From: Ophiosphaerella korrae
Taxonomy: Eukaryota > Ascomycota > Dothideomycetes > Pleosporales > Phaeosphaeriaceae
Length of the DNA stretch: 64,000 nt
NCBI GenBank assembly: GCA_028456385.1
Contig: JALNQF010000144.1
Location: 1 to 64,000, forward strand
Direction of reading: 5' to 3'
The translations under genes were made by a program, and so were the position numbers. Position 1 is the stretch's first letter. Each line of letters opens with the position of its first letter. The notes beneath the pieces are model-generated. The model ran no database searches and was not told the DNA's origin. It saw nothing but the letters and a program-made list of their open reading frames with translations. Of this stretch, positions 13,001 through 36,338 are shown piece after piece.

Positions 13001-13513
13001 TACGCTAGCTTACTTACCTAGACTATATTGTGCAGTTAAAGGAGGAGTAGATGCCTAGCGCAGGATAAATGGAACGAAAAAGGAGCAGCAACTATAGGAG
13101 GTAACTATGTTAACAACCATTGCTTATGATAATTGAAGTAACTCCCGCACATCTCGCCGAATCGCCTTGCAAAATTTAATCAAATTCACCTTCTATAGTA
13201 CTAATTACCCCTGTTCTCAACCATGCCTGTTATACTTGCTTATACCTAAGTTATGCTATCCTTGATCTCTTGACTCTGGCGTCAACGATAAGGTATCTCT
13301 GCAGTTTTAGATTCTAGGTGACGTAGCCCCTGTCTCGTGCTTAGCCCCCATCACCAAATCGGAATTTTGCTCAACAAGTCAGTATGAAAAACGGGACTTG
13401 CAAAGACCAAAACGCAACTATAAATATAAACACGGAGATAGCGAATTGATTGCATTAAATGTTCAATGTTAATATTGGGATCTTGTTTCAATATTGATCC
13501 TCTTCGGCCGGGC
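13001..13513 (+). promoter_or_regulatory. Upstream region of the Zn2Cys6 regulator gene
   Basis: No gene is supported in these 513 bases. Composition returns to about half GC after the repeat island. A TTCGGCCGGGC sequence (13503-13513) abuts the start codon and shares the TCGGCCG core of the promoter motif described at 15774, but lacks its flanking half-sites. A TATA-like TATAAATATAAA stretch lies near 13417. Confidence 0.35.
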
Positions 13514-15706
13514 ATGCAAAAAATCCAGCGAAGACGATGCGTCACATCTTGTGTGCCTTGCTACCAAAAAAAGCAAAAGGTTGTCTTCTATTCCGTTCGT
13601 CGAGATATCTCTAACCAAGCGCTGCAACTAGTGTAATCGCCAGTATCCGTGCAACCACTGCACTCGAAGACGATGTCCGGAAAAATGCAGCTATGATACA
13701 GCCAACAGCACTAGCTCAACCTCGGACCAATATGAAGTCACCAGCCGACGAGACAGCATTGCCACAGGATTCTTTGAACAAGCCTCTTCGGTTAACCCTT
13801 GGGAACAACATTGCATTGTCATTCAGCAAAGCCAGGAGTTGAGTGTTACGGAAAAGATAAACACACCGCCTGAGGGTGTGGGCAGGGGGATCAGGTCGGT
13901 GGTGGAGGCCTTTGGATATATAGAGGAGAGTGAGACGAATCTATTGGCTATTATCCGCAATGTAAGCGCCCTTTGATGACCGACGGTGTCCCCGCTCAAA
14001 GAGACCAGTTCAGCCTACCAGAAGAAATAACCCCAAGCGATCCATGTCAGAAGCTATCTGAAGATGTGTTGGGAGAGATTCAGTATGTTTGGAAGCGGAT
14101 TCCAAGTCGTCCCATCATGGATTTCTTGACGCAGTATTACTTTGCTGAGATCACTTGGTACGTTCCCTGCTGCATTTCATCCGAAGCAACTACATTCCCT
14201 TATGTCCAAGCCAGGGTGTATAATTTGATTCATCCGCCCTGGTTCCTTCGCAAATATCAGGAATGGTGGGCCTTGAAAGAGCCCCGATCCATGGCAGATG
14301 TCGAGTTCGCAGCTCTGATCCTCCGAGTTTGCTCGTACACCACGCAATACCTACCTAGTCCCAGATATACTGTTGACAAAGTCAAGGGTATGCCGCTTTC
14401 CGACATTGGTAACGTCTGCGACGGCGTTAGCAACGATATTTCAGCCATTTGTGCTCGGGTCAACCCCAAAGGCTCATTTATTCGTGTACTTCACCAAGCT
14501 CACCATGCTCTTACATGTGTCTCAAAGGGAAACCTTGGGTCTTTCGGGACTTTACTTCACGAGAGCATCCGAACCGCCCATGCCATTGGGCTCCACAAGC
14601 CATCTGCAGCGTCTACGCACCATCCGGATGAGATAGAGAAGGAAATGTGGCGCAGAACATTTTTTAATCTATACACCCTTGATAGGTACCTGAAAAATTC
14701 CGTAGAGAATCTTTCGACTTCATCTAACAATTGCTCTAGTCTACACTCAAGTCGTACGGGTACCCTGCCATTGCTACCTAGTCAAATCCACGAAGATGCA
14801 GTCCCACGCATGCGTCTTCCGGCCGATATTGACGTTCCACACTCACCTGATGTCTTCTTGCACCGCAAATTAGCGACGCAGCTTTGGAACTTTTGGCGCA
14901 CCATTTTCCTCCCCGGAGAGCCAGAACACGACAGTCTCCGGGCACAAGAGCGATACGTGAAGTTATGTGAGGAGTTTTTGCCAACAATCCCCGATGTATT
15001 CGCACCGGAACCAAACCGTGAATTTGACGAGCGAATAACTTGCATTCCTCTGCAGAGACAGAGGTTTTATATCCAGTTGTATCATGTTATTTGCAGGAAC
15101 TTCGCAGGCGTTCTGTCCCAGGAACCTGCGAGTATCCGGTCTATACCAAGTTACAAGCAAATTCTGCTGAGGCCTCAGCAGAGACTGGTGGCTGCCGCAG
15201 CATTGAAAGTCATGCAGTGTGTTCTTGAAATTCACTATTTGATGGGAAGTGCTCAGGTTCGACTTCCCGCCCTCATTATACACTCATTTGATGCAGGTGT
15301 GCGTTTAGCGTGTCTCTGCCTCATACCAGACTTTCCGCCGGAGTGGGATGAGTCGTTCTCGACGATGAAAGACCCTCTAATGCCAATAATGGCTACTGTA
15401 ACTCGTGGAAAATGCCTCCAGGCGTCAATGAAGGCTCTGAGCTTGTTGCAGCTTCTTTCTGATGTTAGCGTATTGGCCGAAGCTGGTGCATGCGCGCTCT
15501 CGCGAGTCATTGAAAAAGCAACCAAACAAGGAGAATTGGCAACAGAAAAGGAGCATGCAGTGGGGGCAGAGGTGTCCATGGAGATTCCAGTAGAGTGGGC
15601 GGATCTCATGGGCATGGAGCAATGTGATCCTAGCTCGGTCTGGATGCAAGCAGGGGAGTCTGTGTTTCCAGTCGACTCCTTCGATAATAATGACAGGTCT
15701 TACTAA
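13514..15706 (+). CDS. Zn2Cys6 fungal-specific transcription factor
   Basis: This is a DNA-binding regulator of the Gal4-type zinc cluster family with a fungal_trans middle domain. The proposed exons are 13514-13579, 13632-13961, 14009-14157, 14215-14685 and 14740-15706, giving 660 residues. Splicing the first intron joins CVPCYQKKQK to C-NRQYP-CNHC-TRRRCPEK-C, a perfect CX2CX6CX5CX2CX8C cluster at residues 13-41. Introns 14158-14214 and 14686-14739 are multiples of three without stops, so they could be missed. Removing them restores the family-like runs EITWVYNLIHPPWFL and NLYTLDS, and the second contains a CTAAC branch site. The start MQKIQRRRC is the only Met in frame ahead of the cluster. 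The regulator lies immediately before the P450 in the same orientation and is the natural candidate to control it. The target is inferred. Confidence 0.85.
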
Positions 15707-15773: not shown

Positions 15774-15801
15774 CCGATATTAGTCGGCCGATATCTATCG
15801 G
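15774..15801. promoter_or_regulatory. 28-bp dyad operator-like site in the P450 promoter
   Basis: The sequence has the form CCGA-TATTAG-TCGGCCGA-TATCTA-TCGG, so two CCGA/TCGG half-sites are symmetrically spaced by 6 bases around a central palindrome TCGGCCGA. It starts 240 bp upstream of the P450 start codon. CGG/CCG half-sites are what Zn2Cys6 dimers recognise. The same architecture recurs at 23313-23340 and in part at 25744-25761. Confidence 0.7.
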
Positions 15802-16013
15802 AAAGCAGCAGCAGCAGGAATTCGCTAATGTGCAAAATCTTAGCTTGAGACCTTGATTACGCAGAGCCAATTTAAATCACTGATCGTTTCGTTTCAACGT
15901 AGCATACTGCAATGTACTACACGTCTTATTTATGTCTCTTGTTCTTCTGCAAGAAAAGGGAATTCGTCTAGTAACTAGGATACATATTTCTCCCATTCAT
16001 TGTTTAATTCAAG

Positions 16014-17799
16014 ATGACATTGCTTGACTTGTGGGATCGTGCGCCTCACGGAATGGTCTGGAGCATTGGAATAGTTCTGAGTAGTCTTGGTGCCTGGTTC
16101 CTCTATCAATCTTTGCTTCCCAAGCCAATTCCCGGGATTCCATACAATGTGGAGGCGACGAAGCGTTTGTTCGGGGATGCTCCCGATATGGCTCGCGAGA
16201 TCAAAAATACGGGTGGCGAATTTAACGCATGGATGGCGAAACAAGTGGTGAAACTGAATTCGCCTGTGTGTCAGATATTTGTCCGACCTTTTTCAAAGCC
16301 TTGGGTACTTGTGGCAGACTTTCGCGAAGCCGAAGATATTCTGATGCGGCGAGCGGAGTTTGATAAGCCAAGTTTCCTCATTGACGGAATGTTGAGCTTA
16401 GGTGACTTCGCAGCAAGATTCAAAACAAACGAAGCATTCAGAGTGCGCCGGCATTTGAAGCATGATTTGATGACACCGACTTTTCTACACGGTTTCATTG
16501 GTCCTCATGTACACACGACTGGCTTACAGCTGCTTAGGGTCATGGAACAGAAGATCGAGCTTGCTGCTGGGAGACCTTTCAGCATAAAAAAAGACTATGA
16601 GAATGCTGCCCTTGATATTGTGACACACTACGAGTTTGGCGACACCATCAATATCTCGGCACTTGGACCAACCGTGGAGTTATTTGACCGAATAACGCCC
16701 CAAGAAGTGCCAACAGGATCATTGGATGAGCCAGTTCAATTTCCTCACCCTGAACTCGATTCATTCCTAATAGCGGTGGATCAGGCACCTCTTGTGCTTG
16801 AAAAGACGACAAATTCCTGGGCTCCGCATTTAAGTCATTGGATGTGGACTCACCAGAGCTGGTATAAGAAGACATTCGATCACAAATCAAAAGATATTCC
16901 AGTCCTTATTTCAAAGGCTGTCGAAAACGTTCACAACGGGCACGTCAACTCTGCACTTGAACATGTTATTATGCGGGAGGCTGCGCTAGCGAAAAAAGAA
17001 GGCAGATCACCACGTTATGGTGAGAAATGGTTAATTGATGAGGTAAATCAGAGGCCTAGATTATTACAGATGAATACTTACTAAAGCCGCACCCTAGGCC
17101 TTTGGAGACTTGGTTGCAAGTCATCACACAAATTCCGGAGCTATGAGCTGGATATCCAAATACCTAACAGGCCATCCCCTTGTTCAATCAAAGCTGCGCG
17201 CACATCTATATTCCGAAATTTCAGATGCGGCAACGGAGAAGCGACTACCCACCTTCGAGGAGATAAGGCGGGCAAAGGTTCCGTATTTTGAAGCTGTCAT
17301 GGCAGAAGTGCAACGCCTCACCCCCTTTAGCATGGTGCGTGAGGCCACATGCGATACAGAAATCCTCGGTCACAAGATTCCAAAGGGGTGCCAAGTCTTC
17401 ATGGTTAATGGAGGGCCGGGGTATCTGTCACCGTCCTTGCCTGTGAATGAGGACCTTAGAAGTCCGACTTGCCGAGGAGCAAAGAGCAGGGGTACTTGGG
17501 ATGAGAAGAAGGACATGTTGCTCTTTGACCCAGAGCGCTGGCTCGTCAAGACGGCAGACGGTCAAATGGAATTTAATGGTGTGGCAGGACCACAGCTTGG
17601 ATTTGGAGCAGGGGTAAGGCAATGCTGGGGAAGAAGGATGGCACAGCTACAAGTGAAGATTATTGTGGTTCTGATGGTTTGGAGTTTTGAATTTCTCGAA
17701 ATTCCTGAATCTCTTGGTGGTTATGCTGGTCGTGATGGAATCTCGCGCCAGCCACAGAAAGTCTTTGTCAGGCTGAGAAAGTTGGCGAATTTTGATTAG
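16014..17799 (+). CDS. Cytochrome P450 monooxygenase
   Basis: This is a membrane-anchored haem monooxygenase of 576 residues, with exons 16014-17042 and 17098-17799 and a 55-bp phase-0 intron. An N-terminal membrane anchor (about residues 14-34) is followed by a proline-rich hinge PKPIPGIP. The I-helix reads AFGDLVASHHTNSG directly across the splice junction. ExxR is EVQR (413-416), PERW is at 488-491, and the haem loop is FGAGVRQCWG with the ligand Cys519. All the hallmarks of a working enzyme are present. The substrate is unknown. It follows the Zn2Cys6 regulator, and its promoter carries the 28-bp dyad shared with the MFS/dioxygenase pair. Electron supply would come from a P450 reductase encoded elsewhere. 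Confidence 0.93.
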
Positions 17800-18055
17800 A
17801 ATCCGTGACCACCGCGTGCACGGCCCGGGCGCGTGCATGAAAAACACCACTTCTATCATATCGGTTTTCATACTTTTGAGCTACAACCAGATGGTATTAT
17901 GGTGAGATATTTTGGTAGAGAGGCGTAGTAGCTATACAGAAAGATTCCACAGCTTTAGATTTAATTTGTATAACATTGTGGTTACCGTATAGTGCTGCCA
18001 CTGCGCGAGGCCTGGTAGGGCTCCTCCTCCACCACTGGATTATCATCAACTACAA

Positions 18056-18660
18056 CTACCTTAGTAGCTTTCCATTCCGAAGTTGTTTTTGGAGCTGTTT
18101 CTCAGCCTGTTTCTCCTTCCGTTCGATAGCCGTCTCCTCCCTCGCTACTGATCTCATAATACGCCTCTGCTCAAGCTCCTCTGCCTTCTGAAGCTTCTGC
18201 TGTTCGCGGAACTTCTTGGCTTCATCTTTTTGGTGCTGTTGAGCCTCATCCTCAAACTGCTGTTGAAGTCGACGATCTCTAGCCTTAGCTACCTTCTTAG
18301 GTGAATAGAAATAGGCATCACCGTGGTAATCAGTAGGGGGATCAAGAAGGAGAAGCTGCCCACGTTCTCGACGCTTCTTCTCATTTGCCCAAGCTGATTT
18401 ACTCGGTATTCAAGCAGATCAGCTCGAATTACAGTTGCCTGTATCTATCGATCAATTTTCTTAGAGTTTTTCCTCGCCTCTTCACTATGTACCTCTTTCA
18501 TAGCCTCTCTCATTGGTGTTTTAGCTTTCTACTAGTCCTTAGCAGTCAGTATAGAGTTAGAAGGGCCACTGAAGAAGGCTTACTATCCTTTTTCTCCTTT
18601 CTATGGAATCGATCGAGGATAACGTCAGGGTTGAATGGAGAGAGTTATCAGATTTGAGGG
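18056..18660 (-). pseudogene. C-terminal fragment of a pogo/Tigger transposase
   Basis: On the minus strand an open stretch ends with TAG at 18056-18058. It begins around 18397 with SAWANEKKRRERGQLLLLDPP, then FYSPKKVAKARDRRLQQQFEDE and a long Glu/Lys/Gln-rich coiled coil (EAKKFREQQKLQKAEELEQRR). This is the usual tail of fungal pogo-family transposases. Upstream (18400-18660) the frame continues as KAKTPMREAMKEVHSEEARKNSKKIDR with interrupting stops. The DDE core is missing. Unlike the neighbouring Fot1 copy, this fragment is not strongly TA-biased. Confidence 0.6.
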
Positions 18661-19302
18661 GGTTATTGCAGGTTGATAATGGAGGTTGATAAAAAGGCTT
18701 TTTCGTAACGGCCATGTAAGAGCCTTGTTGGAGGTGGATACTGCAGCTTTCAGAAAAGCCTTATTTCAGATTGATGACGTACCGAGGTGGACGGGCGCAA
18801 CGCCCGCTCCGAACGCCAAAGTAGCAACTAAACATGAGGCTACAGAGCCACGTATAATAGCTATTGCTGCAATATTTTCTGGAGTTGAGCTCTATAGGCC
18901 TTGGTTGATATATATAGCTATCTATATTTAACTGGCAGCTTGATTACTCGGCTATGACGTGACTAAGATAGCGGCAGAGCTACTGCAGCACCTAATGCCT
19001 CTCTATGACGTTGAGGCTGCCAGAAGCTCTCTTTTTTGAGTCTACCTGAGTAGATACCTTGAGGCTGCTCCTCCTACGCTTCTAGGCAGCTTTAAGAGCT
19101 TGTTTAAGTTATTGTTAAGTCCTATAAGTAGCTATTCTAGAGGCCTGTTCTGCTACTTTCTTAGCCCTCTTATTCTTACGTGGTACTCGAGCTACTACTC
19201 TTACTATACGCTGCTACTAAAGTGCCTAAAGCTTAGCCTACTTCTACTCCTCTCGTGTACAAGCTCTCTTAGCTTTCTAGAGTTTCTACTACTCCTCTTC
19301 TA
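18661..19302. other. Unassigned stretch between two transposon remnants
   Basis: No gene can be supported. The plus strand holds an open stretch at 18686-18931 with no recognisable motif. The remainder (18930-19302) drifts from mixed to TA-rich composition up to the TIR of the Fot1-like element. It may be older transposon debris. Confidence 0.3.
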
Positions 19303-21096
19303 ACGTGAAAGATTACTGAGCCGGTCAGATCACTAAGCCGGTCACTTTTTCTTGGTATTACGAACACTACCTCTACACCGCTATATCTTAACAACCTAAT
19401 AAAATTATGTCTAAGTAAGAAGGTAGAGTTAAGCTTGCCCTTTAAGCCTTAGCATCTAGCTAATTTTAAAGCTAGCGACGCGCTGCTAAGGCTTTTAACG
19501 TCTGTTAATAGTAGCTCTCTAACTAGCTTAGAGGAATCGCCCTACGCGCAACTACACAACCTAGCTACTAGAAACTAACTATAACTAAAGAGTAAACAAT
19601 TATCTAATATATTCTTAACCTTAACTAATAAGGATTTCTACCCTAGCTCTATAAAGTAGTAGATATAGCTAATAAACTACTTACTATATAAGGTAGAGAG
19701 CCTATAAGTAAGAAGTAGGCTATACGCTTTATAGCGCGTTTAGACAAGCTAAAAATAGCTTTTAATTAAGTAAAGGATTACTAAAGAATACTCTAAGAGG
19801 ATCCTAAAGTTATTAGTAGGTAGTTTAAGCTTATAGAAGAGACTAAGGCCTAGTATAGAGTAGTAGATAAAAACGTCTATAACTTTAATAAAACTAGCTT
19901 TTAGATAAAAGTAATTAAGTCTATAAAAGTTATTATAAGCTTAGAGAAGTATTAATAACTTACTCTTAATTAGGGTAGTAATTATAAGTAAGTTATAGTA
20001 ATATAGGGTGTCTATATAGTAGAGTACGTAATCTTACTATTTATTATCTATAAAAGATATATCTATATCTCTACTTAGGATAAAGAGATAGGTATACTAA
20101 TTAATTAGAAGCTTTTAGTCTTAGAGAATAGCTAGATAACTAATATACTTAGCTTAGAGTAGTTAAAGTACTTTAACGTGTATATAAAGTTACGTTAAGT
20201 AAGAGTATACTAGCTACTTTAACTAAGATTTTAAAGACTACTACTTTAAAAATAAAATTCTAACTCTTTATATACTTACTTATTTATTATATATTTTCTA
20301 GCTACTTAATATAGTATACTTCTTACTACTAAAGTATAAGTACTCTAAATTCGTATAAGACTTAGTATAAAAACGCGTCTTTTATATTAATAAAGAAGGC
20401 TTTTTTCTAGCTTTTAGAGACGCGTTTTTTAATATATTTACTAAGTAGAACTATAAGAAGGCTTTTAAAGCTTTAGGACTTATTTCTCTAAATACGTAGT
20501 AAGTACTAGATTACCTTAATATACGTATTTGTACTTTACTAGGACTCCTACTACTAGAAACGCTATAGTAGTTAAAGACTCTAAGTAATACGCACAAATT
20601 TAAGTCTTAGTTAAAGCTCTTAAGTAGCTTTTTCTATTACTTACTTACTACTATATAAAGCTTCCTTTACTAGCTTATTAAGGGTACTAAATTAATACTA
20701 TATAAAAGAGCTTAAAGATTAATTAGAGGTAATAACTAAGTAAAAGTTAAGTAAAAGAAAGTAAATTTAGCATAGTAGGACTATAGAGTATAGAAAGACG
20801 TTAACGTAGGTAGCTGTAGAGGCATTAATAGCTACGTAGAAGGGTAAAAAAGCTTGTAGTAGGAGTAACTATAAAAGGGCTTAGCTAGGTTAACAGCGCT
20901 GTAGGAACTATAGGAAGACTAGGCACAACGCGCGAACGTGCTAGGAAGATAAAGAGATTTCTGAATTATATAGTAGTGTTATAGTAGTAGGGGGTACTAA
21001 GTAAAGTTTGTTATTAACCCCTAAAGAGGTGGTGTTCGTAATGCCAAGAAAAAGTAACCGGCTCAGTGATCTAATCGGCTCAGTAATCTTTCACGT
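19303..21096 (+). mobile_element. Complete Fot1/pogo-like DNA transposon, RIP-inactivated
   Basis: The 1794-bp element is bounded by 72-bp terminal inverted repeats (19303-19374 and 21025-21096) starting ACGTGAAAGATTACTGAGCC. They differ at 6 positions, all transitions. A TA dinucleotide flanks each end, the expected target duplication. Each TIR contains two copies of a CTGAGCCGG-type subrepeat. Inside, from the ATG at 19407, the plus strand reads as a Fot1-type transposase with stops. An N-terminal helix-turn-helix region (EGRVKLAL, RRAAKAFNV, LRGIALRATTQ) is followed by ITKEQTIIQYILNLN, REPIS, FNKTSFQIKVI and a decayed DDE tail. All damage is TA-directed. Confidence 0.9.
19407..20930 (+). 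pseudogene. Fot1-type transposase, stop-riddled
   Basis: Translation of the frame starting at 19407 shows the HTH_psq/CENP-B-like DNA-binding region, then EDPKVISRQFKLIEETKA and VVDKNVYNFNKTSFQ, and a decayed LQPLD-like stretch (LLNIVYF) near 20290. Later segments such as RVFYINKEGFFLAFRDAFFNIFTK remain readable. More than a dozen TAA/TAG stops interrupt it, most of them derivable from CAA/CAG/TGG by RIP transitions. The downstream limit is approximate. Confidence 0.75.
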
Positions 21097-21373
21097 TACT
21101 AGTTATAGCCTTTATATTACTTGTATTAATATAACTATATATTATTTAAGTTTTGTTGTTATATAAAGGAATTAAGCGTTATAGCGTCCGCGGCATCACA
21201 CGGGGTCTATCTTGGTAAGCCTGATCTCGACAGTTTCTTCAGTTGTCTGCTAGATCAAGGTCTGAATCACACAATTCGAAAATATGCTGAACGTAAATAC
21301 AACCGCGACTTTGTTTCAAAACTTCCGACGCTACCAGTCCAATTCTTGTTGCCTTGTTGAAGCTTCCTATAAA
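21097..21373. other. Short spacer and 3' flank of the MFS gene
   Basis: This holds 277 bases between the right TA of the Fot1-like element and the MFS stop codon. It begins TA-rich and becomes ordinary coding-flank sequence by about 21180. It presumably holds the MFS 3' UTR. No other feature was seen. Confidence 0.3.
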
Positions 21374-23043
21374 TCATCTATCTTGGTTATCCGACGCACC
21401 TTTCAACTCTCGCTCCTCCCGCCATTTCGGACCTTTACGAACCAAGAGATAGATAAATGGTGAAAACAACGTCAATAGTCCTCCTACTAGAGTGAAACAC
21501 CATCCGAATCCTATAGCGTCTACTAGTACCTTGACTATAGCGGAGCCGCCTGCAGAAAGAAGACATCGTACAAGATTGTTAGCTGCGATGGCAGTTGCTG
21601 GAGATCGCGGATAAAGATCGACAATTAGAGTGTTGAGGACGCTATGAGCACCGACAAGGCCAAGGCCAACGAAGAACAACATAACAAGAGACACTGAGAG
21701 GGAAGTCTCGGCCTCGAGAGCCCAACCATATCCTATTAGAGCAGAAGTGCCTACGGCAATGGCTGGCGCAGCCAGCTGAAGACGGCAGAGCTCGATCGGG
21801 AAGTGGCGGATGTCATCGCCGCGTTGTTTATCTATGATAAAGCCGGTCTGGACTGCAATGCGACTGTAGTTCCAATCAAGAAGACGCCCCTGTGCGACTG
21901 CAGACAGGCAGCAAGCTACTCCGTATGGAAGATAACAGAGGCCAACTTGCAGCTGATTGAGGCCGTATATATTGACCAAGCTTGTTGATAGAATAGTTAG
22001 GGCCATAAAGATAGAGGTAAATAGGATACCATTGAGTAAAAGAAGGATTGACATGTCTTTTTGTGAGCAGATACGCAATGTCTTGACTGGGTTAGGCCAG
22101 CGAACATTTCTGGCTGGTCTCGGTGAGTTTGGGTCAGCCTGATCAGTGTCTTTCTGTTGCAGCCAATCAATAAGTGTCTTGTTCCACCCTTCCGGTGGAA
22201 CTGAGCCGTTGCCGACGACGTTTCTACAAGTCTCCGGAACGAACAAGGCATAAGGCACAAGCCAAGCGGCGGTAAATGTGAAGCAGAACCAAAAGACTGC
22301 TCTCCATGAAAAATACTCGGAGAGGACACCCCCAAGTAGTAGACCAATACCAGGACCAGCTGTCATGCCAATGCCAGCGATTCCTATGTATGTGCCTCTT
22401 TCTGCTGTCTTGAAATTTTCATTATTAGAGTGGATTTTTGGGGGCGAACCTATACACTCACAGAGGAAACATCCGCTACCACGGCGTAACACAAAGCCAG
22501 CGTACCGCTTGTTCCTAAGCTCTGGACACAGCGGAGAACCAGGAGGGCGGCATAGTCTGTTTGCAAAGCTAAGCCAACGTTGGCCCCTAAAGAAATGGCG
22601 AACGAAAAGATAAAGGCCGGTCGTCTGCCAGCAGTGTCTCCGAAATCGCCAACAAACATTGGTGCCACGGACTGCACAAGTTGGAAGGACGTAATGCTCA
22701 AGTTAATGAGGCTCACGGATTTTCCCAAATCGCGCGATATGGGCTCTAATGCCGGAAAGTAGATATTTAGCGAGAGGGGAGAGATAAAACTTGAGCAAGT
22801 AACCATTACTATGACCCAAAGCTTCGTCTTGCGCGAAAAAGCACAATAACTGGTGTTAGTGCTCGGCTGCTGCCTTGCTTCGCTTTCAGCCAATCTGCTC
22901 ACTTGATCGGCACCTTCATGATTCGATATCACCTCCATCTCATCTAGTTCTAAACTAGTGCGGAATCTTTTTACGTTGGTTCTGGATAAATCTCGAGGCG
23001 CCGTCGATTGGATCAAAGAGCTTAATTGATCTTGCGTCGTCAT
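21374..23043 (-). CDS. MFS drug:H+ antiporter-type transporter (DHA1, Qdr-like)
   Basis: This is a plasma-membrane secondary transporter of 538 residues. The exons on the minus strand are 22462-23043 and 21374-22408, with a 53-bp phase-0 intron (GTGAGT...CAAG) that joins VVADVSS to TAERGTYIG. A hydrophilic N-tail of about 65 residues precedes twelve predicted membrane segments. The loop 2-3 signature reads GDFGDTAGRRP, and the segment-4 arginine region reads LVLRCVQSLGTSG. The central loop holds DWLQQK-D and the second half has WNYSRIA-QTGFIIDKQRGDD-RHFPIE and LYPRSPATAIAANNLVRCLL, all typical of the Qdr/citrate-exporter branch. It is divergently transcribed from the dioxygenase at 23550 across a 506-bp shared promoter carrying the 28-bp dyad. 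Export of a toxic substrate or product is a plausible but unproven role. Confidence 0.9.
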
Positions 23044-23549
23044 AACGTGAAATGATTGCTCTAAGAGTGAGCCTGAGTGTTGGAGATTGTAGAATTAGAC
23101 AGGATGTATCCCACTTGCGTGGGTTATTGATCAGTAGAGGTGGCCAAGCCCGAACTTTCACTTCAGTACAATGCCTAGGCTGCTATCTTGCCTAAATAGC
23201 ACGGAAATGGCCAGTACAGAGGTTCTTCGCTAAGATTTCTAAGTGGTATATTAAGCCGCCCGTGTCTAGCATCCTGGCCAAAATCGTGACGGAAAAGCTT
23301 CCAGAGAGCCAGCCGATAAGTTTCGGCCGACAGCAGTCGGCCGCTTTTACCCCAGGGCAACAGGCGAAATGGCCTTGTTTTCATTATTATCATCATCCAA
23401 TGACAAGATAGCGGTGGGAGTGTGGTGTGCTTGAAAATCTATATAATTACCGATATGGATGGCAAGCGAGGGAGAGACATAACGGTCCGTAGCACATCGC
23501 GACGCAACAAAGCACCAATTTTGAACACTCAAAGGTCATCTGAAACTCC
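23044..23549. promoter_or_regulatory. Bidirectional promoter between MFS transporter and dioxygenase
   Basis: These 506 bases separate two divergent start codons and contain no supported gene. The dyad at 23313-23340 sits near the middle, 270 bp from the MFS start and 210 bp from the dioxygenase start. It could therefore serve both directions. Confidence 0.6.
23313..23340. promoter_or_regulatory. 28-bp dyad operator-like site, MFS/dioxygenase promoter
   Basis: The sequence has the form CCGA-TAAGTT-TCGGCCGA-CAGCAG-TCGG, the same half-site arrangement as at 15774-15801 but with different spacers. The following CCG extends the right half into a perfect 8-bp inverted repeat, CGGCCGAC/GTCGGCCG, with a 4-base loop (23324-23343). 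Conserved half-sites with variable spacers are what a protein-binding site would show. Confidence 0.7.
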
Positions 23550-24789
23550 ATGGCGACATCTTCTATCAACAATGGAAGCCTCATTGAAGCAGGGGTTAAG
23601 ACACACCAACCACTACAGCTCTCCGGGGCTCTTGATATCTACGAATCAAATGACATGACCCCAGCAATTGGCCGCGAATTCCCAAAGGCCAACTTGGTAG
23701 AATGGCTCAATGCTAAAGATTCCGATAAACTACTTAGAGACCTCGCTATAACTAGTACGACTCTGCCAAAGCTCAAATGTTCTGCTGCTAACCCAACTTG
23801 TAGTTTCTCAGCGAGGGGTAGTAGTTTTTCGCAATCAGAATGATCTGACAAACGATCTCCAAAAGAACTTGATTGTTCGTCTTGGTGAACTAACCGGTAC
23901 CCCCAAGACTTCAACTCTTCATATTCACCCTGTGCGTAACGATGCCAGGAAACTTGGGGGAATGGATCCCGAGATCAGTACCATCAGTTCGGTGCAGACC
24001 AAAAGTATTTACAACAAAATTGACGAGGATCGAGCTACCGTGAAGAAGGCCAATGGGGAGGGCTGGCACTCCGACATTGCCTATGAGCCTGTACCAGCAT
24101 CGTACACTTCTCTTCGGCTCAGTGAGCTCCCAACCACTGGGGGTGGTGAGTTTCCCTTACCGGTGCTCGCTATGAAATGCTGTTTGATAATCCATAACTA
24201 GACACACTCTGGGCTTCTGGATACGAAGTCTACGATCGGATCAGCAAGCCTTATCAAAAATTCCTAGAAACACTCACAGTCACTTTCCACCAGCCATTCT
24301 TTAGGGAGATGGCGATGAAAGGGGGTTTTGAAATGCACGAGGGGCCAAGAGGAGCCAAAGAGAATATTGGTACAGAGCTCAAAGCCATCCACCCTGTTAT
24401 ACGCACTAATCCAGTCACGGGTTGGAAAAGTGTTTTTGCAGTTGGGCCAGCAGCTGAGAGAATCAACGGTGTTACTGAGGAAGAGAGTAAACTTCTACTA
24501 GACTGGTTACTGAGTTTGGTTTGGCGCAATCATGACCTTCAAGTCCGTTTGAAATGGAATAATAAGAATGATATTGGTGAGTCCTTCTTCCTAATTCAAT
24601 AGTATCCATAGCTGATTATGATTAGCAATCTGGGATAACCGTAGCGTCTTTCACTCCGCTACATTTGATTATCTTGGCTACGGTGAACGCTTTGGTAACC
24701 GCGCTGTGGGTATGGGTGAGAAGGCATTCTTTGACACTAAGAGTGTCTCAAGAAGAGAGTCGCTTGGTCTGCCGCGTATGAATACCTAA
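23550..24789 (+). CDS. TfdA/taurine-type Fe(II)/2-oxoglutarate dioxygenase
   Basis: This is a cytosolic oxygenase that couples 2-oxoglutarate decarboxylation to substrate hydroxylation. Fungal relatives act on sulfonates (Jlp1) or aromatic ethers. Exons are 23550-23754, 23804-24145, 24202-24576 and 24626-24789, giving 361 residues. Introns of 49, 56 and 49 bp all have GT...AG ends. Joins restore LAIT-ISQRGVVVFRNQ, TTGG-DTLWASGYEVYD and NND-IAIWDNRSVFHSAT-like runs. The metal triad is complete: His157 and Asp159 in WHSD, His317 in SVFHSAT. Arg329 in GERFGNR is placed to bind the 2-oxoglutarate carboxylate. Length is normal for the family. It is divergent from the MFS gene and shares its dyad-bearing promoter. 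The substrate is not deducible. Confidence 0.92.
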
Positions 24790-24832
24790 AATAAATGAGA
24801 AGAGCGTATCAATCATTTAGTGCGCGTGACAT

Positions 24833-25249
24833 TTGACATGTTATGAAGCTTCCTCGCTCTTAATTCAGCCCAAAACGTGGTATCTATCAATCTACTCCCG
24901 ACATCGCGTTGCTAACCCATATTTTCGGATTTACTTAGCCATAATCACTGTTTTCATGGCACTCGAAAACAACGAATTCCCTATAGGAATCGACAACAAC
25001 ACAATGCTATTCGTACCCAGCCGCACATATCAAGATAACAGTCTTATAAGTATTAATGATGGCAATTGGTACAGCCTCACTCTCCCGTTTCTTCTGTCAA
25101 ACCATGGCAATGGGTTTAAAGCACGTTGTAATGAGGAAGCACTCGTTATGGTCATAGCTGGGGGAGACGTAGATGTTTTACTCGGTGTTTGTGACAGGAA
25201 GGGCGTAGGATTTCGTGGCTCCCTGGTAAGAGGGTGTTGTCTGCACTGA
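24833..25249 (+). CDS. Hypothetical 138-residue open frame
   Basis: This is an uninterrupted frame starting 43 bp after the dioxygenase stop. The central part (MALENNEFPIGIDNNTMLF, then SRTYQDNSLISINDGNW) looks protein-like rather than random, and the C-terminal VMVIAGGDVDVLLGVCDRK is hydrophobic then basic. I recognise no family. It could be a remnant of a longer gene, since the first 45 residues have no comparable quality. Expression is doubtful. Confidence 0.25.
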   Translation: MTCYEASSLLIQPKTWYLSIYSRHRVANPYFRIYLAIITVFMALENNEFPIGIDNNTMLFVPSRTYQDNSLISINDGNWYSLTLPFLLSNHGNGFKARCNEEALVMVIAGGDVDVLLGVCDRKGVGFRGSLVRGCCLH

Positions 25250-26065
25250 TAGGAAGCCGGTTGCGGGCGGGAACAGATTTGTGAAGCATACCCCCTTGGG
25301 TGTGCGAAGGTACAAGAAACGTAGCGGACCAATAATGCTTAATTAACAAGCCGGTACAACATGTGAACTCCACCTTTAGTAAATTCAAATAATGCTACAC
25401 GAACTTCTACAAAGCGAAGGGCAATTCTGGTACGTCTATTATCTGCTAATCACCGAGTGCTACTAAGTAGCTAGTGATTGCTCGCTTGCTGTTGGTTAAT
25501 TGACAGGTTTCTCATGTTCTTCGTACCTTTACGCACACAGCGGGTTTTCTTTTTAGGGCTTTACCTAAAGAGATATTCGACACATATAGCGATGCGGGGT
25601 GTCTGGGGTTAGTATTCGGCTGGGCGGCCAAATGTTGCCGTTTTTGTAGCATACCCGCTTCCCAATAAAGCACGACAAAGGGACGTTCAGGTGGGGCCCT
25701 TGCCTAGCCTGCCAAGGCGTCAAGATCTCGGATTGGCAAAGTCTCGGCCGATGTTGATCGGCTTAGACCGGCGATGAGGCAGGAGGTACTCTAGGTCCAT
25801 AGCTGGAATGGATCCGCAAAGTCCCGGCCGAAGCGAACCCTCGAGGGTGAGCAAGGCTTTTTTAAGGGCAAACTTATAGCGCTATATTCATGTATCCGCG
25901 GGGTAGGTAAGACACTAGCATTGAAAACGTAAGCTCTCAACAACTCCCGCGAATTCCAAGACGCGCCCACAGACATTACAAAAGCCTAGAAAATCGGCTT
26001 CGACAATACTCAGCTTACCCTACCAAGCTTCTGTGACATCTCCCTACGCTCTCTCTATGTTTGCC
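25250..26065 (+). promoter_or_regulatory. Upstream region of the intradiol dioxygenase gene
   Basis: No gene is supported. Besides the 18-bp TCGGCCGA-N6-TCGG site at 25744-25761, a further CGGCCGA core occurs at 25826-25832. The region is otherwise ordinary. Confidence 0.4.
25744..25761. promoter_or_regulatory. 18-bp half of the dyad motif, intradiol dioxygenase promoter
   Basis: The sequence TCGGCCGA-TGTTGA-TCGG matches the right 18 bases of the sites at 15774-15801 and 23313-23340. It agrees at 15 of 18 positions with the P450 site. The left CCGA half-site, expected at 25734-25737, is absent (TGGC). It starts 322 bp upstream of the start codon. Confidence 0.6.
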
Positions 26066-27274
26066 ATGCGTATCCTCTCACTTGCCACGACACTGGCAGC
26101 AGTTGTGGTGGCACATCCAGGTGAGAACTACAATGAAGAGCTCCTGGAACGTCAATCATTCCAAGCCAATATCGAACCATCTTCTTTAAGCCACTGCGCC
26201 GAAACTTTCAAGGTGCGTGGTGTGACTGAGCGTAGCACCAAGCGACGTACTGCAACGTTAGAGGCTGCCCGTCAAAAGAGTCAGTTTAGACACCATATTT
26301 TGGCAAGAATAGTTTCTGAATCGAGTACAGGAAAAATTAAGAAGCGTGATCTCGATGAGGCCTCTAATACTGTCTATAACACAACCGAGTACGGTTACGT
26401 ACAAGCTACCAGCCCAGATGCATTATTTCCTGGTAATAGGTCCTGCATTCTCAAGCCAGAACTTCCAACCGGCCCTCTCTGTAAGCTTTAATATAAGGGT
26501 TTCTCTAAGCTGGCCCTCAAGTTCTAACTGCTTACAGATGTCAGTGGCGAAAACATTCGCAAGAGCCTCAAAGAGGACCAGGCGGGTGTTGATCTCTTAC
26601 TGGACTACCAAATCATTAATGTAGACACCTGTGAGCCTGTGCCCCTTCTCTATATTGATATCTGGCACTGCAATTCGACTGGTGTCTACGCGGGCGTTAT
26701 TAGCCCAGGCAATGGAGATATCAATGATACTTCCAACCTCGAAAAGACATGGGGCCGTGGTATCCAGCCAACCGATGGTGATGGCGTTGCTCAATTCGAA
26801 ACCATTTTCCCAGGTCATTATACCGGACGCGCGACCCATATCCACATACTCGTTCATGCTAATCCTACGGTTTATGAGAATGCGACACTCGGTAATGAAG
26901 TTTACAGCAGCTATATTGGCCAGACGTACTTCGAACAGAGCCTGATCGATAACATTGAGAAACTAAGCCCCTATATTAAAAATCAGCAGCCTCGTACGAA
27001 AAATTCAGATGATATCCTCCTTAAGCAAGAAGCTACTACTGGTTCAGATCCTATTTTAGAGTGGACCTTGTTAGGAAATACTATCGAAGAAGGCATTTTT
27101 GGATGGTTCTCTTTCGGGATAAATGTAACAAAAACCGTTAAGGTTACCCCCCCTGTATTTAGATACAAGGATGGTGGTCACATCAACTCTCAACGTAGCT
27201 CCGCTATTTCTAGCAGTGCATTCTTGAGAAGCGATTCTACGACCGGACAGCCTAAAAGTACGGGTGCGACTTAG
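26066..27274 (+). CDS. Secreted intradiol ring-cleavage dioxygenase-like protein
   Basis: The family splits catechol-type rings between the two hydroxyl-bearing carbons using non-haem Fe(III). The proposed exons are 26066-26480 and 26538-27274 (57-bp intron), giving 383 residues. I chose the Met at 26066 because MRILSLATTLAAVVVAHP is a clean signal peptide. Upstream in-frame Mets at 26033 and 26057 would bury it. The iron ligands are visible: Tyr139 (GPLYVSGENIR, formed across the splice), Tyr189 (WHCNSTGVYAG), His239 and His241 (GRATHIHI). The C-terminal 80 residues are Ser/Thr-rich and low in homology-like features. Extracellular members may act on lignin- or plant-derived catechols. The promoter shares part of the cluster motif. 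Confidence 0.9.
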
Positions 27275-29129: not shown

Positions 29130-32100
29130 CTAAGGTAAAGTAACTAAAACTTTTCTAAAGGCTTTAAGCTCCACGGGCCCAATAAGTCCAAACTCCTGCC
29201 AATTCTCGTTGGTGTAGTATGATGGGGTTTTTGGACCATAGCCGATACTCAAGACATGCTCGAGATTTGCTTTGACAGCATTGAAAAGCGATGTAGTTAC
29301 CTGTACCTCCATGAAGTTGCTACCATTTACGATAAGGTCAGAAACGTCTACTACGGGATTCGTCAGGTCGATAGCTGGAACTTGTTTACCATTCAACCAT
29401 GCCTTCATCGTATGAAGAATAGGCCCGAAGTCTACTAGAATGGCTGTCGAATTGTCCATTGATATCTCAAAGTGCGTACGGTATGTACCTATGCCACTAG
29501 CGTGCTCAATTTGAGGAATTTCTGTCCAGGGCGCTAGATGATCTAGCATTCCTATATTGATGGATGTGATGTTGGCTTTAAGTGAGGCATGATCGAGGGC
29601 AGGCCCATGGACTTCTACTGTGAGATTCCAGGAACCTAAATTTATGATTGCTGCACATGGCGTGTTGCCCTCCGGAAGGACAATGTTCGTGCCATTGCTT
29701 AAAGTCACCCTGGCAGTCGAGTTGTCGGAAACCAATGCCTCCAGGCTTTCGTGTTCCGTAAAATAAACCGTCTTCACGTTAGGGGAATGGTCTACCACAT
29801 GTTCTTTTTGTCGTGCTTTGGAAGCAGCCATGAATGCAATTATTGTTGTTTGATTCGACCGTAAATTAATCTCCATATTAACGGACGTAGAATCCCTTTT
29901 AAAGACTGCCAATGGAAGTTGAGATCCAGCCCAAGAGTCCAAGGCGTATGGTGCAAGATCCTCACTGACAGAGAAAGTAATATTAAACACGCCATCAGCG
30001 CCCTGGTTGTACAAGAAGACATGATCCGAGTGTGATTTGGTGTCAGTCGTCCAGAAGGTATAGAGACCCAACGCGTTAGAAGCAACATCTATCTGAGCAC
30101 GAGCAAGTACCCCATCTGCAGCAAGTATAGACGCTGAGAAACTCTCGGGGCCAACGACGCGCACGACATCGTATCCCAAGAGCTCATTAATGTTTTCCGA
30201 GACCTGTTGCTGTCCGGTTATCCCAACTGTGATATTCGGAATCGTACCCACAATATAGATGGGCAGTCCATTTCGTGCAAATTCTAACAATGCTGCAGAC
30301 GCATCTGGCGTAATTTGTGTTTGTTGGTAAATGACCAAAGCCCGGAACGCAGGCCCCTCAGGAGCGAGAACCCCATCAACAACCAGAGCTTGCTCAGATA
30401 TTAGGTTTTTCGCACTTAAGTATTCGAGTGTATATCCTTGTGTGCGTTAGCTAGACCGTCGAATATATTGTTCATCTAGCTCACCGTGTTTGTTAATATC
30501 GGATCCAGGATAAATATCCCTAAATTTGTATGGAATCTCAAAGTAGTAGAAAGCAAGATCCACCTTGGGCACGCCGGATTGCATCGTCATGCTGTTCCTT
30601 GCCGAGTACGTGAAGAGGTCGTCAAGATGCTGCCACGCCGGCTGCCGATGATTCCACATTTCCGTGTATTCATACTGGAAAGGCGTATAGCCAGGCCATG
30701 TGGTTTTAAAATATCCACCACTGTAGGCATAGCCATGGATGACCATCGTGTTCACGCCCGCCGCATAAGATTGATCAAGAAGGGCCTTCAATCTAGGGAT
30801 GCGAAGCTTGTAAGCTCCACCCAGTACTGCGCCAACCTCCGTCGAAATAACGTTTCGGCCTGCTAGATGAGCCGCGCCTGTGAATTGCCGATAAAGATCA
30901 ATATTTTCGGCAAAGCCAAGGGATTCAAGTTCTGGTACTTGCACATGCGATACGGCTTCCGCCTGTCTAGTGTTAGAGTCTCCTTCTAATCGGTGGTCTA
31001 GGCACTCCCAAACGGAAGATGAACGAGGGGATTGCTAGTTGGCACCGAAAGACTTACCATGTCGACCGGCATGTTATACGCCGGTTGGTTAGACAGTTGA
31101 ACTCCCCTGGATGATGCCCATTTGTTGTAATGTTCCACATAATCTATATAACCTTGACTAAGCGCGGTCTTGTAGTCCTGCACGTAGGGGCCCCCATTTG
31201 TGATAGACTCGCCAAGCGTATAGGTGATGTTGTACGGTGGGAGGTACCCACCCCATGCATTTGTCGCATGGAACAGAATGGGCAGATATAGAATGATACT
31301 GTATCCGTGACGCTCTTCGAACAGAGCAAAAAGATCAGACGTCCATGGAAGAGCGGCTTGCATCTCCATACTATCCTCCCAGACTCAAATAGCATGTTAG
31401 TTCAAGTGTAGAAACGAGTAATGCGACACTTACCATATCCGCCAACTTCTCTCACAAGCGTAGCTATACCGACCTCAGACAGAATCTGCTGATCCCAGAA
31501 ATCTGTCATTTTTTTGGCACCGCTGGCACTCCAGTGGTCCACGATCCATGAGCCATTGCCTAACGCTGTCGTGGCGTTCGAAACCGACACACAACTTCGC
31601 TGGTTCGTGTAACGCTCGTAGAAAGCGAATATAATCCATGTTCCATTGCTCTCAGGAGCAGTCCATGTCAGGCTACCCTTGTCTGTGACATTAGTCAGAT
31701 CGACCAAGGAGTTTTCGTCCAGAGCAGACGCGTAGAAAAATTCAGCGACTAGTCTTTCGGAAACAATCCTTGCAGCAACCACAGCTACTAGCTCGTTCGA
31801 TCCCCACGGCTCTGCGGTATTCATAAAACCCACCAGTTGGTTGAAGTTAACGTTAGGCTCGGGAAGTTTGCCGGAGAAAGTTGCTCCAGATTGAATCGTC
31901 GTGTTTCCGTACACGAGCTGTTTGGCTAGGCCGGGGGTCTCTACGGCTGATGGTACACCGGCTCCTTGGTTCCCACCAAAGGCGAAGTCAAATGCCAAAT
32001 TCAGTGCAGCTGATGCATTCAAAGCAGCATGAAACAGTTTGTTGAAGGCGTCTGTGCCGAAGCCATAGATAGACCAGTCAGTCACGGCAGGGCCCAAGCC

Positions 32101-32385
32101 GTAGTTGTAAAAAGGAAGGAACTCGAGGCCACCAGCTCCTACGGCCGCGATCTGGCGAATGTCATCCTGAACGGAACCGTGGGTGACAGATGCGTCGGGC
32201 AGCCTACCACCGTCAGCTTAGACTAACAGAAAAGCGTGGGATACAGACCAGTATCGGAATTTTGGGCGGTACTGAATGGGCGGGTCCTTGAAGTGTGCAG
32301 TCGCAACTGTTGGCTCGCCGCCGCTCATTGCAAGCACCTGAGCTACTGGCGTCAATGAGGCAAAAAGGTAGTGCATGCGCTTCAT
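29130..32385 (-). CDS. Secreted GH106-like alpha-L-rhamnosidase
   Basis: This is a predicted extracellular enzyme releasing L-rhamnose from pectin side chains or plant glycosides. Five minus-strand exons (32249-32385, 31434-32203, 31058-31383, 30485-30962, 29130-30436) sum to 3018 bp in frame, giving 1005 residues. Introns are 45, 50, 95 and 48 bp. Joins restore FRYW-LPDASVTHGSV, GGYV-WEDSMEMQ, PVDM-AEAVSHVQVPELESLGF and NKHG-YTLEYLSAKNL, consistent with the Glyco_hydro_106 family layout. The start Met at 32385 leads a signal peptide, MKRMHYLFASLTPVAQVLA. The core holds AGAGGLEFLPFYNYGLGP, ISTEVGAVLGGAYKL and GVNTMVIHGYAYSG. The C-terminal third is beta-rich. It is divergent from the Zn2Cys6 gene at 33052. 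The 95-bp intron has more than one possible acceptor. Confidence 0.85.
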
Positions 32386-33051
32386 TGCTCAACTGCAGCC
32401 TAGCATCTAGCACTTGAGTTGCTGGCGCGAGAAATGGTATGGCACAGGTCCGTCTTTTATCCTCATGTGCTTGTTGTATGCGGGATATCATTCCGCTCAG
32501 CACAGCCTGTGCAGGGTAGGCGTTGTGATATTCGTCATTACCTCAAGCTACCTGGGCAGAGACGTTTCTTTCAGTATGGAGTCCGTGGAAGCACTCGGCG
32601 TCACTGGTCCTGGCAGATGGACCTTGCACATGCCAAGGGCAGCGCTTCCTCAGCTTCCACAAACGGACTGCTAGTGTGAGGTGCGCATGGATCTCCACGA
32701 GTTGCGATCTGCCAGCGTCGGGGGACGCCTAAAGGAGCGCCCCCTGTTTCCCTTTGTCCAATCGCTGGTCCACCTATACGCAGCGTCTACGAATACGACT
32801 TTACCTGACCCGGCGGCTGGATCTAATGCAAGCAAGAATCAAGGATAATGCTCGCATCAGATCGCTGGGCATTCATCCTCCTCGAGCCAGCCAAATCAAT
32901 TCATGACAGCGGAGCAAGGTGTGCTGCAGGATGCAAATATCCGACGCCCGAACCGCATCGGCCCGACTTGGCCTTGTGTGATCGGTTCCGATCCTCCGAA
33001 CTTTCGTTTAAGCTTCGTATTCGCATTTCTCGACTGGACCTCTCTACTCCC
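32386..33051. promoter_or_regulatory. Divergent promoter between GH106-like gene and second regulator
   Basis: These 666 bases lie between two divergent starts. Open stretches exist on both strands but none resembles a protein. The CCGA-N6-TCGGCCGA motif of the first cluster is absent. The arrangement suggests that the regulator controls the rhamnosidase, which is an inference from position. Confidence 0.4.
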
Positions 33052-34344
33052 ATGCGCTTCAACAGCGGCCAACGTTTTGCTGTCATGATGAACAATACTC
33101 CGACGACACGTGGTACTCCAAATTCTGCTGATAGCGATGCAAATGGTCAACCTCATACCCACTCATCCTACAAGGATACTCTCGCCGAGAAGGTGAAGAG
33201 ACGATCGCATCGGAAATCGCGCTTTGGTTGCAAGAGCTGTAAAATCCGGAGAATCAAGGTAATGCTCAACACCATCCGATCAGTGTAGCAACCTAATTAT
33301 TAGAAGTGCGACGAAAGAAGACCAGAATGCACCAACTGCCAGCATCGGCAAATTCGTTGCAACTTTGCCACGAACCCCACGCCCAGCCCTTCACATACGC
33401 CGAGCGCGGAGCCAAGTGCAAGCCCTGACGAAACGTCACCGACGTCAAGTGACCTAAGCCTAGCAGAGATGGAGTTGATGTACCATTGGACAACATCAAC
33501 CGCCAAGACGCTATCTGCACACAGTGCGGGGGCGATATTCTGGCAAACAAATGTTACAGAGATGGGCTTGACATATCATCATATACTCCATCTAATTCTT
33601 GCTATCACAGCGCTTCATCTAGCTTATTGTCGTCCAGCTCGCCATGATGAGTATACCGCCAAAAGCAATCAGCACTTCGCAAAGGCCATCCCGGCGGTGA
33701 CCTCCGAGCTCTCCCAGCTCAATGAGCGCAATTGCGATGCCGTATTACTCTCTGTCGAGCTAATATCTTTCATCGGCTGGGCACGTGGTCCTCAGCCCGG
33801 AGAATTTCTCGCATTTGGTGCAAATCAACGGTCAGAATGGTTGATAATGTTCCGTGGTATCCGTACCACGATGGAAAGTTTAGACTACGACGCCTTTACG
33901 AAGTCTTATACGCTGCAAATGCGCATGCGAGGCAAGCTATCACGGCACAGCACACATCCCGCGTTCGAACAGCCGCTCGCCGACCTGCGAGAGTATATCC
34001 AATATGTTAGCTCCCCTAGTCACCTTGCTTCAAATCTCTCCGCGCTGGAACTTCTTCTGGAATGCTACGGAAACCGCTACAATGGTATTGATAGTGAGTA
34101 CCACACCGTCTTTACTTGGCTCTTTAAGATGGAGGAAGAATTTCTAGAAGCAATGCAGAGAGGTGACGCGATACCTTTGGTATTGTATGCGTATTTTGCG
34201 GTCCTACTAAACGACATGGAGGATTTTTGGTATATGAAGGGGTGGACGATACATGTGCTTAGTGGTATCTGGGGAAAACTGAGAGACGAGGATAAGGGAT
34301 ATCTAAGGTGGCCGATTAGCATTGTGGGATGGATACCTCCTTGA
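33052..34344 (+). CDS. Zn2Cys6 transcription factor (UPC2-like branch)
   Basis: This is a zinc-cluster regulator of 414 residues with exons 33052-33258 and 33307-34344. The cluster spans the splice: CKSCKIRRIK in exon 1 meets C-DERRPE-C-TN-C in exon 2. Using acceptor TAG at 33301-33303 would insert an extra Lys and give CX7C, while AAG at 33304-33306 restores the canonical CX6C, so the second is preferred. A basic stretch KVKRRSHRKSRFG precedes the cluster. Ser/Pro-rich linker and the helical segment SEWLIMFRGIRTTMESL follow, as in sterol-uptake-type regulators. Met 33052 is chosen over upstream starts that give a Cys-rich, unconserved leader. Met 33085 is also possible. Confidence 0.85.
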
Positions 34345-34549
34345 GACGCTGGTATCCTTTAGGTATCTTCGTTGCTCGCAATGTGTTCTTGCATGCTCCT
34401 TTACTACTTCCTACTGGTGAGAAGCCTCGCTTGATTTCAGGATAATCAATAGTAGGTATTTTGTTTGAACTGCATATAATCGCACCGAACATAGAAAGAA
34501 GTCTTATTTTGTTCCTATATACTTCGGACTTTGGCCACTAACTTCGCCA
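34345..34549. other. Convergent 3' spacer
   Basis: About 200 bases lie between the stop of the regulator and the tail of the minus-strand GT28 remnant. No feature was seen. Confidence 0.3.
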
Positions 34550-35912: not shown

Positions 35913-36338
35913 AAAGTTTGAAATGCTCTGTGACAGCCTCTTATAGAGTTCTTTGAGGGTGGAATGAATGCCGATCGAAGTGAAGGCCCGATTAGGGCCA
36001 GGCTAGCAACGTGCTAATTTCTACTGCGGCTTAGCTCGTATCGCATGAAGCGGACGTGTAACGCCAGCCTGTTAGTGTGCCAAATACGATAATAGCGAAT
36101 ACGACAATAGCGAATGCGTCGAATGTGAAGAAAGGCTGAAAACGGTGTCCTCGATCTTGAATGACGCTGTGCTCCTCGAAACATTCTCGGAGATTAAATC
36201 ATTTGGCTCCTGGGCGGAGCACAGCCCATATTTCTTTTACAAAAGGTCTACTATGGCCTGGTCGAACTCTTCTAACCTCCCTTCCCTTATCTCTTTCGCT
36301 TCGTCTAGTCGATTCTCGTCAAATACTAGGACCATAAA
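35913..36338. promoter_or_regulatory. Promoter region of the GH78 gene
   Basis: These 426 bases lie between the divergent GT28 remnant and the rhamnosidase. A 15-bp tandem repeat (36083-36127) lies about 210-255 bp upstream of the start codon. No other gene is supported. Confidence 0.4.
36083..36127 (+). repeat. 15-bp tandem repeat, three units
   Basis: The units are AATACGATAATAGCG, AATACGACAATAGCG and a diverged third, AATGCGTCGAATGTG. The first two differ by one transition. Their position in the rhamnosidase promoter allows a regulatory role, but simple slippage would look the same. Confidence 0.6.

Follow-up and report, generated by a model that had tools for sequence, protein, structure and literature searches.

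The window analysed here comprises positions 1 to 64,000 of an Ophiosphaerella korrae contig (hereafter C51), and the 28-bp motif CCGA-N6-TCGGCCGA-N6-TCGG that it carries is probably the cis-operator of a single polyketide cluster of ~45 kb, split by transposons and most likely read by the Zn2Cys6 protein that the cluster itself encodes. A first reading of this DNA from its letters alone (the sequence-only reading) had proposed that the motif marks one regulon across a transposon island. Our results support this proposal and extend it, in that the only further exact copy in the genome lies on contig C46, within a polyketide synthase (PKS) cluster on the other side of the island. The marked genes form a biosynthetic cluster, a point absent from that reading.

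Operator sites in the window

The operator core, TCGGCCGA, is a palindrome of two CGG half-sites with zero spacer, and TCGG half-sites lie exactly 6 bases outside it. Exact copies of the full four-half-site operator (all sites are given without strand) were found where the sequence-only reading had placed them, at 15774-15801 in the promoter of a cytochrome P450 gene and at 23313-23340 in the divergent promoter of a major facilitator superfamily (MFS) transporter gene and a TauD/TfdA-family dioxygenase gene. In the latter, a fifth half-site (CCG, 23341-23343) adjoins the operator and gives rise to a second CGGCCG at 23338. The right 18 bp had been reported to recur at 25744-25761, and this holds for a partial site, the three-half-site operator A (25734-25761) of the intradiol ring-cleavage dioxygenase promoter, in which TCGGCCGA-N6-TCGG is intact and the left arm is missing. 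A second three-half-site operator in the same promoter (B, CCG-N8-CGGCCGA, 25814-25831), 80 bp from operator A, has GCAAAGTC-Y-CGGCCGA in common with it. A 16-bp direct repeat (25736-25751 and 25816-25831) lies around both operators and is identical at 15 of 16 positions, suggesting a local duplication of the site. The distances to the start codons, previously put at 210-320 bp, measured 210-296 bp (TauD 210 bp, P450 213 bp from the ATG at 16014, MFS 270 bp, intradiol dioxygenase 296 bp). A lone CGGCCG core (13505-13510), 3 bp upstream of the ATG of the regulator gene, is a weak candidate for autoregulation. Operator B, the fifth half-site, this lone core and the C46 half of the cluster go beyond the sequence-only reading.

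When up to 3 mismatches to the full pattern were allowed, operator A (3 mismatches) joined the two exact sites, making three matches in the window where 100 shuffles gave an expectation of 0.06. The single unit CCGA-N6-TCGG occurred six times (0.41 expected).

Distribution of the operator in the genome

The whole-genome scan at one mismatch that the sequence-only reading had called for (63.03 Mb, 974 contigs) returned three places, all exact: the two window sites and C46:6199-6226, in a promoter of the PKS cluster. The claim that the window holds no other full copy was therefore borne out, and the triplet-only form CCG-N8-CGGCCG-N8-CGG was found genome-wide at the same three places only. The full site is thus largely confined to the cluster, where all three of its copies lie. 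No such confinement applies to the bare core, as TCGGCCGA has 480 copies genome-wide. Scaled from the counts at up to 3 mismatches, the number of exact sites expected would be ~0.006 (from 99 places, that is, 107 minus 8 assigned to the cluster, of which only 6 can be itemised) or 0.011 (from the 178 places matched by the reversed pattern used as control).

The spacing of the flanks was also enriched in the cluster. The 480 copies of TCGGCCGA provide 960 flanks, and 7 copies fall within the two cluster stretches, whose combined 29.45 kb would be expected to hold 0.22. TCGG stands at N6 on 10 of the 960 flanks, which divide into 7 of 14 in the cluster and 3 of 946 elsewhere (binomial P ~1e-14, for a pattern that was itself suggested by the window sites), and the cluster flanks have TCGG at most once at any of the remaining spacings between 0 and 26 bases. 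Without the two full window sites the fraction is 3 of 10 flanks, and for the four C46 cores alone, unseen in the sequence-only reading, it is 2 of 8, a single site contributing the two. The three stray single-flank places (C125:9559, C490:130503 and C723:35558) correspond to the background rate (3/946 flanks); the C723 site is within a 366-aa open frame, the C490 site is within frames of more than 100 aa, and the C125 site is within a 102-aa frame beside a cytochrome-b5-like frame, where its placement is uncertain. Copies scattered through coding DNA at chance rate, which the sequence-only reading held to be incompatible with its proposal, were thus encountered as these three single-flank matches and not as the full site.

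A wider regulon beyond the cluster was considered and rejected, since the places with 2 mismatches are no more numerous than chance: four genome-wide (C125, C490:89358, C601 and C867) against ~7 expected by the same scaling, with open frames listed for C125, C490:89358 and C601. The C601 copy (C601:129045-129072) has both outer arms exact and the core GCGGCCAA, and precedes, by a few hundred bases, another open frame of the Zn2Cys6 type, in a seemingly catabolic neighbourhood (families judged by eye). Among the plasmid records, the P450 promoter gave no match.

Genes of the cluster

On C51, the operators accompany five genes. The Zn2Cys6 regulator (13514-15706, + strand) has the pattern CX2CX6CX5CX2CX8C once a putative intron (13580-13631) is spliced out, and a Fungal_trans domain scoring 31.7 bits in Pfam (cut-off 23), so the cluster encodes its own regulator of this type, as judged by the cysteine pattern and the domain score. 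The paralogue search for the regulator gave one weak match only, and comparison of its zinc cluster with solved structures gave weak matches (best E 0.008, a centromere-binding protein) that were not used. The P450 gene (16014-17799, +) has a second frame matching the Pfam family p450 (98.9 bits) and a first frame that has P450 homologues without a Pfam match. It is followed by the MFS gene (21374-23043, -), the TauD/TfdA-family dioxygenase gene (23550-24789, +) and the intradiol ring-cleavage dioxygenase gene (26057-27274, +; second frame Dioxygenase_C, 33.9 bits).

C46 starts with ~2.5 kb of AT-rich DNA, after which biosynthetic genes follow: a berberine bridge enzyme (BBE)/FAD oxidase (ATG at 3291, +), a SnoaL-like gene (ATG at 5964, -; a weak match of 20.3 bits, under the 24-bit cut-off), a glutathione S-transferase (GST; ATG at 6546, +), an O-methyltransferase (OMT; ATG at 9142 or 9091, -) and a highly reducing PKS (HR-PKS; ATG at 9663, +). 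The second PKS frame (1,596 aa) contains dehydratase, methyltransferase, ketoreductase, acyl carrier protein and alcohol-dehydrogenase (enoyl reductase-type) families and has full-length polyketide synthase relatives; the first, with ketosynthase and acyltransferase, was assigned by eye. The SnoaL-like and GST genes flank the third full operator, which is 320 bp upstream of the GST ATG. Further CGGCCG cores are located at 2997 and 3102, upstream of the BBE gene, and at 9270 and 9294, between the OMT and PKS genes. Searches returned no CGGCCG in C46:9300-20000 and no TCGGCCGA in C46:20001-40000. Downstream of the PKS, an open frame at C46:19657-21360, which we take from its sequence to be multicopper-oxidase-like, has no TCGGCCGA nearby and is therefore probably outside the regulon.

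Half-sites in the cluster promoters

CGGCCG was found in each of the seven stretches that hold the promoters of the ten genes. Together these 3,114 bp contain 11 cores, where the 8,320 copies in the genome would predict 0.41. The full operator is present in three of the seven, and the promoters of the cluster thus have a common motif, as is the case for pathway-specific operators. Four 400-bp stretches upstream of other open frames of the window contained no CGGCCG. Counting half-sites at the cores and their N8 arms, we obtained four for the P450 promoter, five for MFS/TauD, four for SnoaL/GST, six for the intradiol dioxygenase (the two three-half-site operators), four for BBE (two cores 105 bp apart), four for OMT/PKS (two cores 24 bp apart) and two for the regulator. 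Every promoter stretch other than that of the regulator therefore has at least four half-sites, provided by one 28-bp operator or by two cores, and two dimers per promoter would be the simplest reading. Within the cluster, the core occurs without arms and CCGA-N6-TCGG does not occur without the core, suggesting, from six promoters, a probably primary role for the zero-gap palindrome, to which the arms would add. The looser unit CCG-N8-CGG stands alone at C46:9348 (OMT/PKS promoter), C46:2874 (417 bp upstream of the BBE ATG), C46:11797 and position 25257 of the window, and this leaves room for an everted pair as the binding unit.

Junction of C46 and C51

The two halves of the cluster appear to be joined through a retrotransposon. 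One of its long terminal repeats (LTRs) lies at 4486-4947 of C51 (+ strand), and its partner is C46:1413-1874; among the 40 scored of 3,730 repeat candidates, the C51 copy was the nearest to that of C46 (94%, next 92%). When the contigs are joined left end to left end, both LTRs have one orientation, and the sequence flanking the pair is ACTTT on both outer sides (4948-4952 on C51). Against each of the five full-length element copies, C46:1 to ~1875 and C51:80 to ~4945 align to consecutive parts, with a gap of 335-336 bp between C46:1 and C51:80 (extrapolated from C51:88 in copy L042). The element is an AT-rich retrotransposon with an LTR-to-LTR spacing near 6.6 kb in these copies, of which four have matching 5-bp flanks; the fifth, L038, for which the LTR end was extrapolated, does not. 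The closest LTR pair, their orientation, the consecutive alignment and the ACTTT flanks together indicate that C46 and C51 are neighbours and that the assembly broke the cluster inside one LTR element. The cluster is thus split by an LTR retrotransposon with paired repeats in one orientation, the spacing of its family and a target site duplication. No sequence overlap between C46 and C51 was found. If the first 79 bases of C51 belong in the gap, about 255 bp would be missing at the junction.

A second insertion within the cluster (19301-21098, without strand; 1.8 kb, mostly AT-rich), between the P450 and MFS genes, has 74-nt terminal inverted repeats that are 92% complementary and a doubled 17-mer at each end.

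Homologous clusters and product

Co-location of PKS and P450 homologues in other genomes was read from contigs of exactly equal size, using the best 120 of 850 PKS matches (one, lacking a size, was dropped) and the best 120 of 264 P450 matches. Fourteen of the 119 PKS homologues listed are on a contig of equal size to that of a listed P450 homologue, eight with the same organism named; when the sizes were shifted by 1-5, nine of ten shifts gave no match and the tenth gave one. On the longest contigs a common contig alone is no proof of closeness, but three pairs with neighbouring locus numbers do show it (Monosporascus DL767_007292/007290, Pestalotiopsis fici PFICI_00493/00490 and Fusarium oxysporum FOVSG1_015283/015286). 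The closest PKS relatives among the best 120 of 850 are at most 53% identical. Regarding the product, the parts of the literature available to us gave no match for PFICI_00493 or for the gene set (PMC8851701), nor did the available parts of the neurosporin literature (PMC9239088, PMC11375781), the neurosporin cluster not having been compared by sequence.

Proposed mode of regulation

Along the joined locus, the order would be HR-PKS, OMT, GST, SnoaL-like gene and BBE-type oxidase, then the transposon island, followed by the Zn2Cys6 regulator, P450, the 1.8-kb transposon, MFS, TauD dioxygenase and intradiol dioxygenase. From the sites and gene positions we infer that the regulator encoded at 13514-15706 is the most likely reader of the operator, that it would bind there and activate the pathway, and that two dimers per promoter might plausibly switch the pathway on together. 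A more specific model can be put forward only tentatively: the 28-bp site would be an operator with four genuine half-sites, occupied cooperatively by two neighbouring Zn2Cys6 dimers in a 14-bp register, and each dimer would contact an everted CCGA-N6-TCGG pair or else straddle the zero-gap core. The requirement for four half-sites (in one operator or two cores) might then provide a sharp all-or-none switch, keeping the pathway under one control after its split by transposons. An operator known from two promoters predicted the missing half of its cluster genome-wide, with the LTR pair and target duplication as independent support for linking the contigs. Operators could in this way serve as bar codes for joining repeat-broken pathways in draft fungal genomes. 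A regulator and a 28-bp candidate target can now be named for a polyketide pathway, raising the question of how Zn2Cys6 proteins use four half-sites.

Several observations weigh against a cluster operator read by the cluster's own regulator. The reversed-pattern control matched as many places as the real pattern at up to one mismatch (three each; the exact share of the control is not given), more in the triplet form (four against three) and more at up to 3 mismatches (178 against 107), and its core, GCCGGC, is commoner genome-wide than CGGCCG (10,258 against 8,320). Since the real counts are no higher than those of the control, the case rests not on how many matches there are but on how exact they are, how their flanks are spaced and where they lie. 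The sites were already known when the promoter stretches and the limits of the cluster were set, 2 of the 13 CGGCCG of the cluster stretches lie outside promoters (14820, in the regulator's frame, and C46:5227), and the cores of the BBE and OMT/PKS promoters have no exact outer arm. At the junction, bases 1-79 of C51 gave no alignment to the element. The Zn_clus match of the regulator (19.7 bits) falls just under the Pfam cut-off of 21 bits. The two regulator relatives found (Monosporascus sp. mg162 and Thermothielavioides, 34-35% identity) are on contigs of other sizes than the PKS and P450 homologues listed, so co-travel with the cluster is not supported, and the link between regulator and pathway rests on position here. 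The paralogue search for the regulator gave one weak match only, and comparison of its zinc cluster with solved structures gave weak matches (best E 0.008, a centromere-binding protein) that were not used.

The operator may be real and cluster-wide but bound by a different regulator, either a Zn2Cys6 protein unlinked to the cluster or the Fungal_trans_2 regulator located near 30.8-32.4 kb on C46, a reading that we consider unlikely. The latter protein is encoded ~13 kb past the PKS, and the C51 regulator has a lone core only in its own promoter; however, C46:20001-40000, which holds the Fungal_trans_2 gene, is devoid of TCGGCCGA, and the C51 regulator directly adjoins the P450 gene, inside the operator-marked stretch. 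It is very improbable that the sites were spread within a repeat or transposon rather than maintained by selection on regulation: the locus is repeat-rich and the near-identical intradiol sites may have arisen by local duplication, but no two full sites have the same six-base spacers and neither scan puts the site in listed element copies. Coincidence, by which both window sites would be CG-rich palindromes that arose by chance and the C46 site a third such accident, agrees with the raw counts, which equal those of the reversed control, and can be practically set aside given the small number of exact sites expected, the flank test and the position of the third site in the other, neighbouring half of the cluster.

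Comparison with known Zn2Cys6 operators

Zn2Cys6 proteins commonly bind CGG half-sites, and cluster-specific operators are of an established kind, but the geometry described here fits none of the four spacings compared. The UaY/PPR1 site, TCGG-N6-CCGA, has the same half-sites and six-base gap; it is inverted, whereas the arrangement here is everted (CCGA-N6-TCGG) and doubled, and CCGA stands at N6 on 0 of 14 cluster flanks, against TCGG on 7 of 14. The yeast Rds1 site, CGGCCG, resembles the zero-gap core and is not known to have outer half-sites.

The other three regulators are described here from the accessible parts of their source papers. GliZ, the regulator of the gliotoxin cluster, has the site TCGG-N3-CCGA, in which the T before CGG is part of the site (PMC7022936). 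It resembles our system as a cluster's own Zn2Cys6 protein with TCGG half-sites in cluster promoters (PMC7022936), and differs in having two inverted half-sites with a 3-base gap rather than a zero-gap core with outer half-sites at N6; CCGA was at N3 on 0 of 14 cluster flanks, separate GliZ-type sites in the promoters not having been scanned. PDR-1/RhaR (pectin/rhamnose) has the site TCGG-N11-CCGA, of which the authors hold the T to be part (PMC5469009); the TCGG half-site is common to both systems and the 11-base inverted spacing is not, with CCGA at N11 on 0 of 14 cluster flanks and at N12 on 1 of 14. TerR, the regulator of the terrein polyketide cluster, likewise has sites in pathway promoters (TCGGHHWYHCGGH), with a T before CGG favouring high affinity; inverted half-sites are not recognised, and the authors suggest that the number of sites matters for promoter strength (PMC4360782). 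The TerR site differs in being a direct repeat with N5 (TCGG-N5-CGG), and the direct spacing in the operator here is CGG-N11-CGG; separate TerR-type sites in the promoters were not scanned. We found no paper with this operator in the literature searched, outside which most subscription journals fall, and none on a zinc-cluster regulator among the titles and abstract beginnings retrieved for TCGGCCGA.

Rhamnose-related neighbourhood

Further along the window, GH106-type and GH78-type rhamnosidase frames adjoin a second regulator, of the Fungal_trans_2 family and with a zinc cluster scoring under the cut-off, at 29130-38857, a rhamnose-related neighbourhood without the full operator. The statement of the sequence-only reading that the rhamnosidase promoters lack the operator holds for the full operator and fails for the single unit: the sixth CCGA-N6-TCGG of the window, a lone unit at 32948-32961 that is compatible with chance (0.41 expected per window) and is followed by CCCGA, lies near the rhamnosidase and second-regulator frames.

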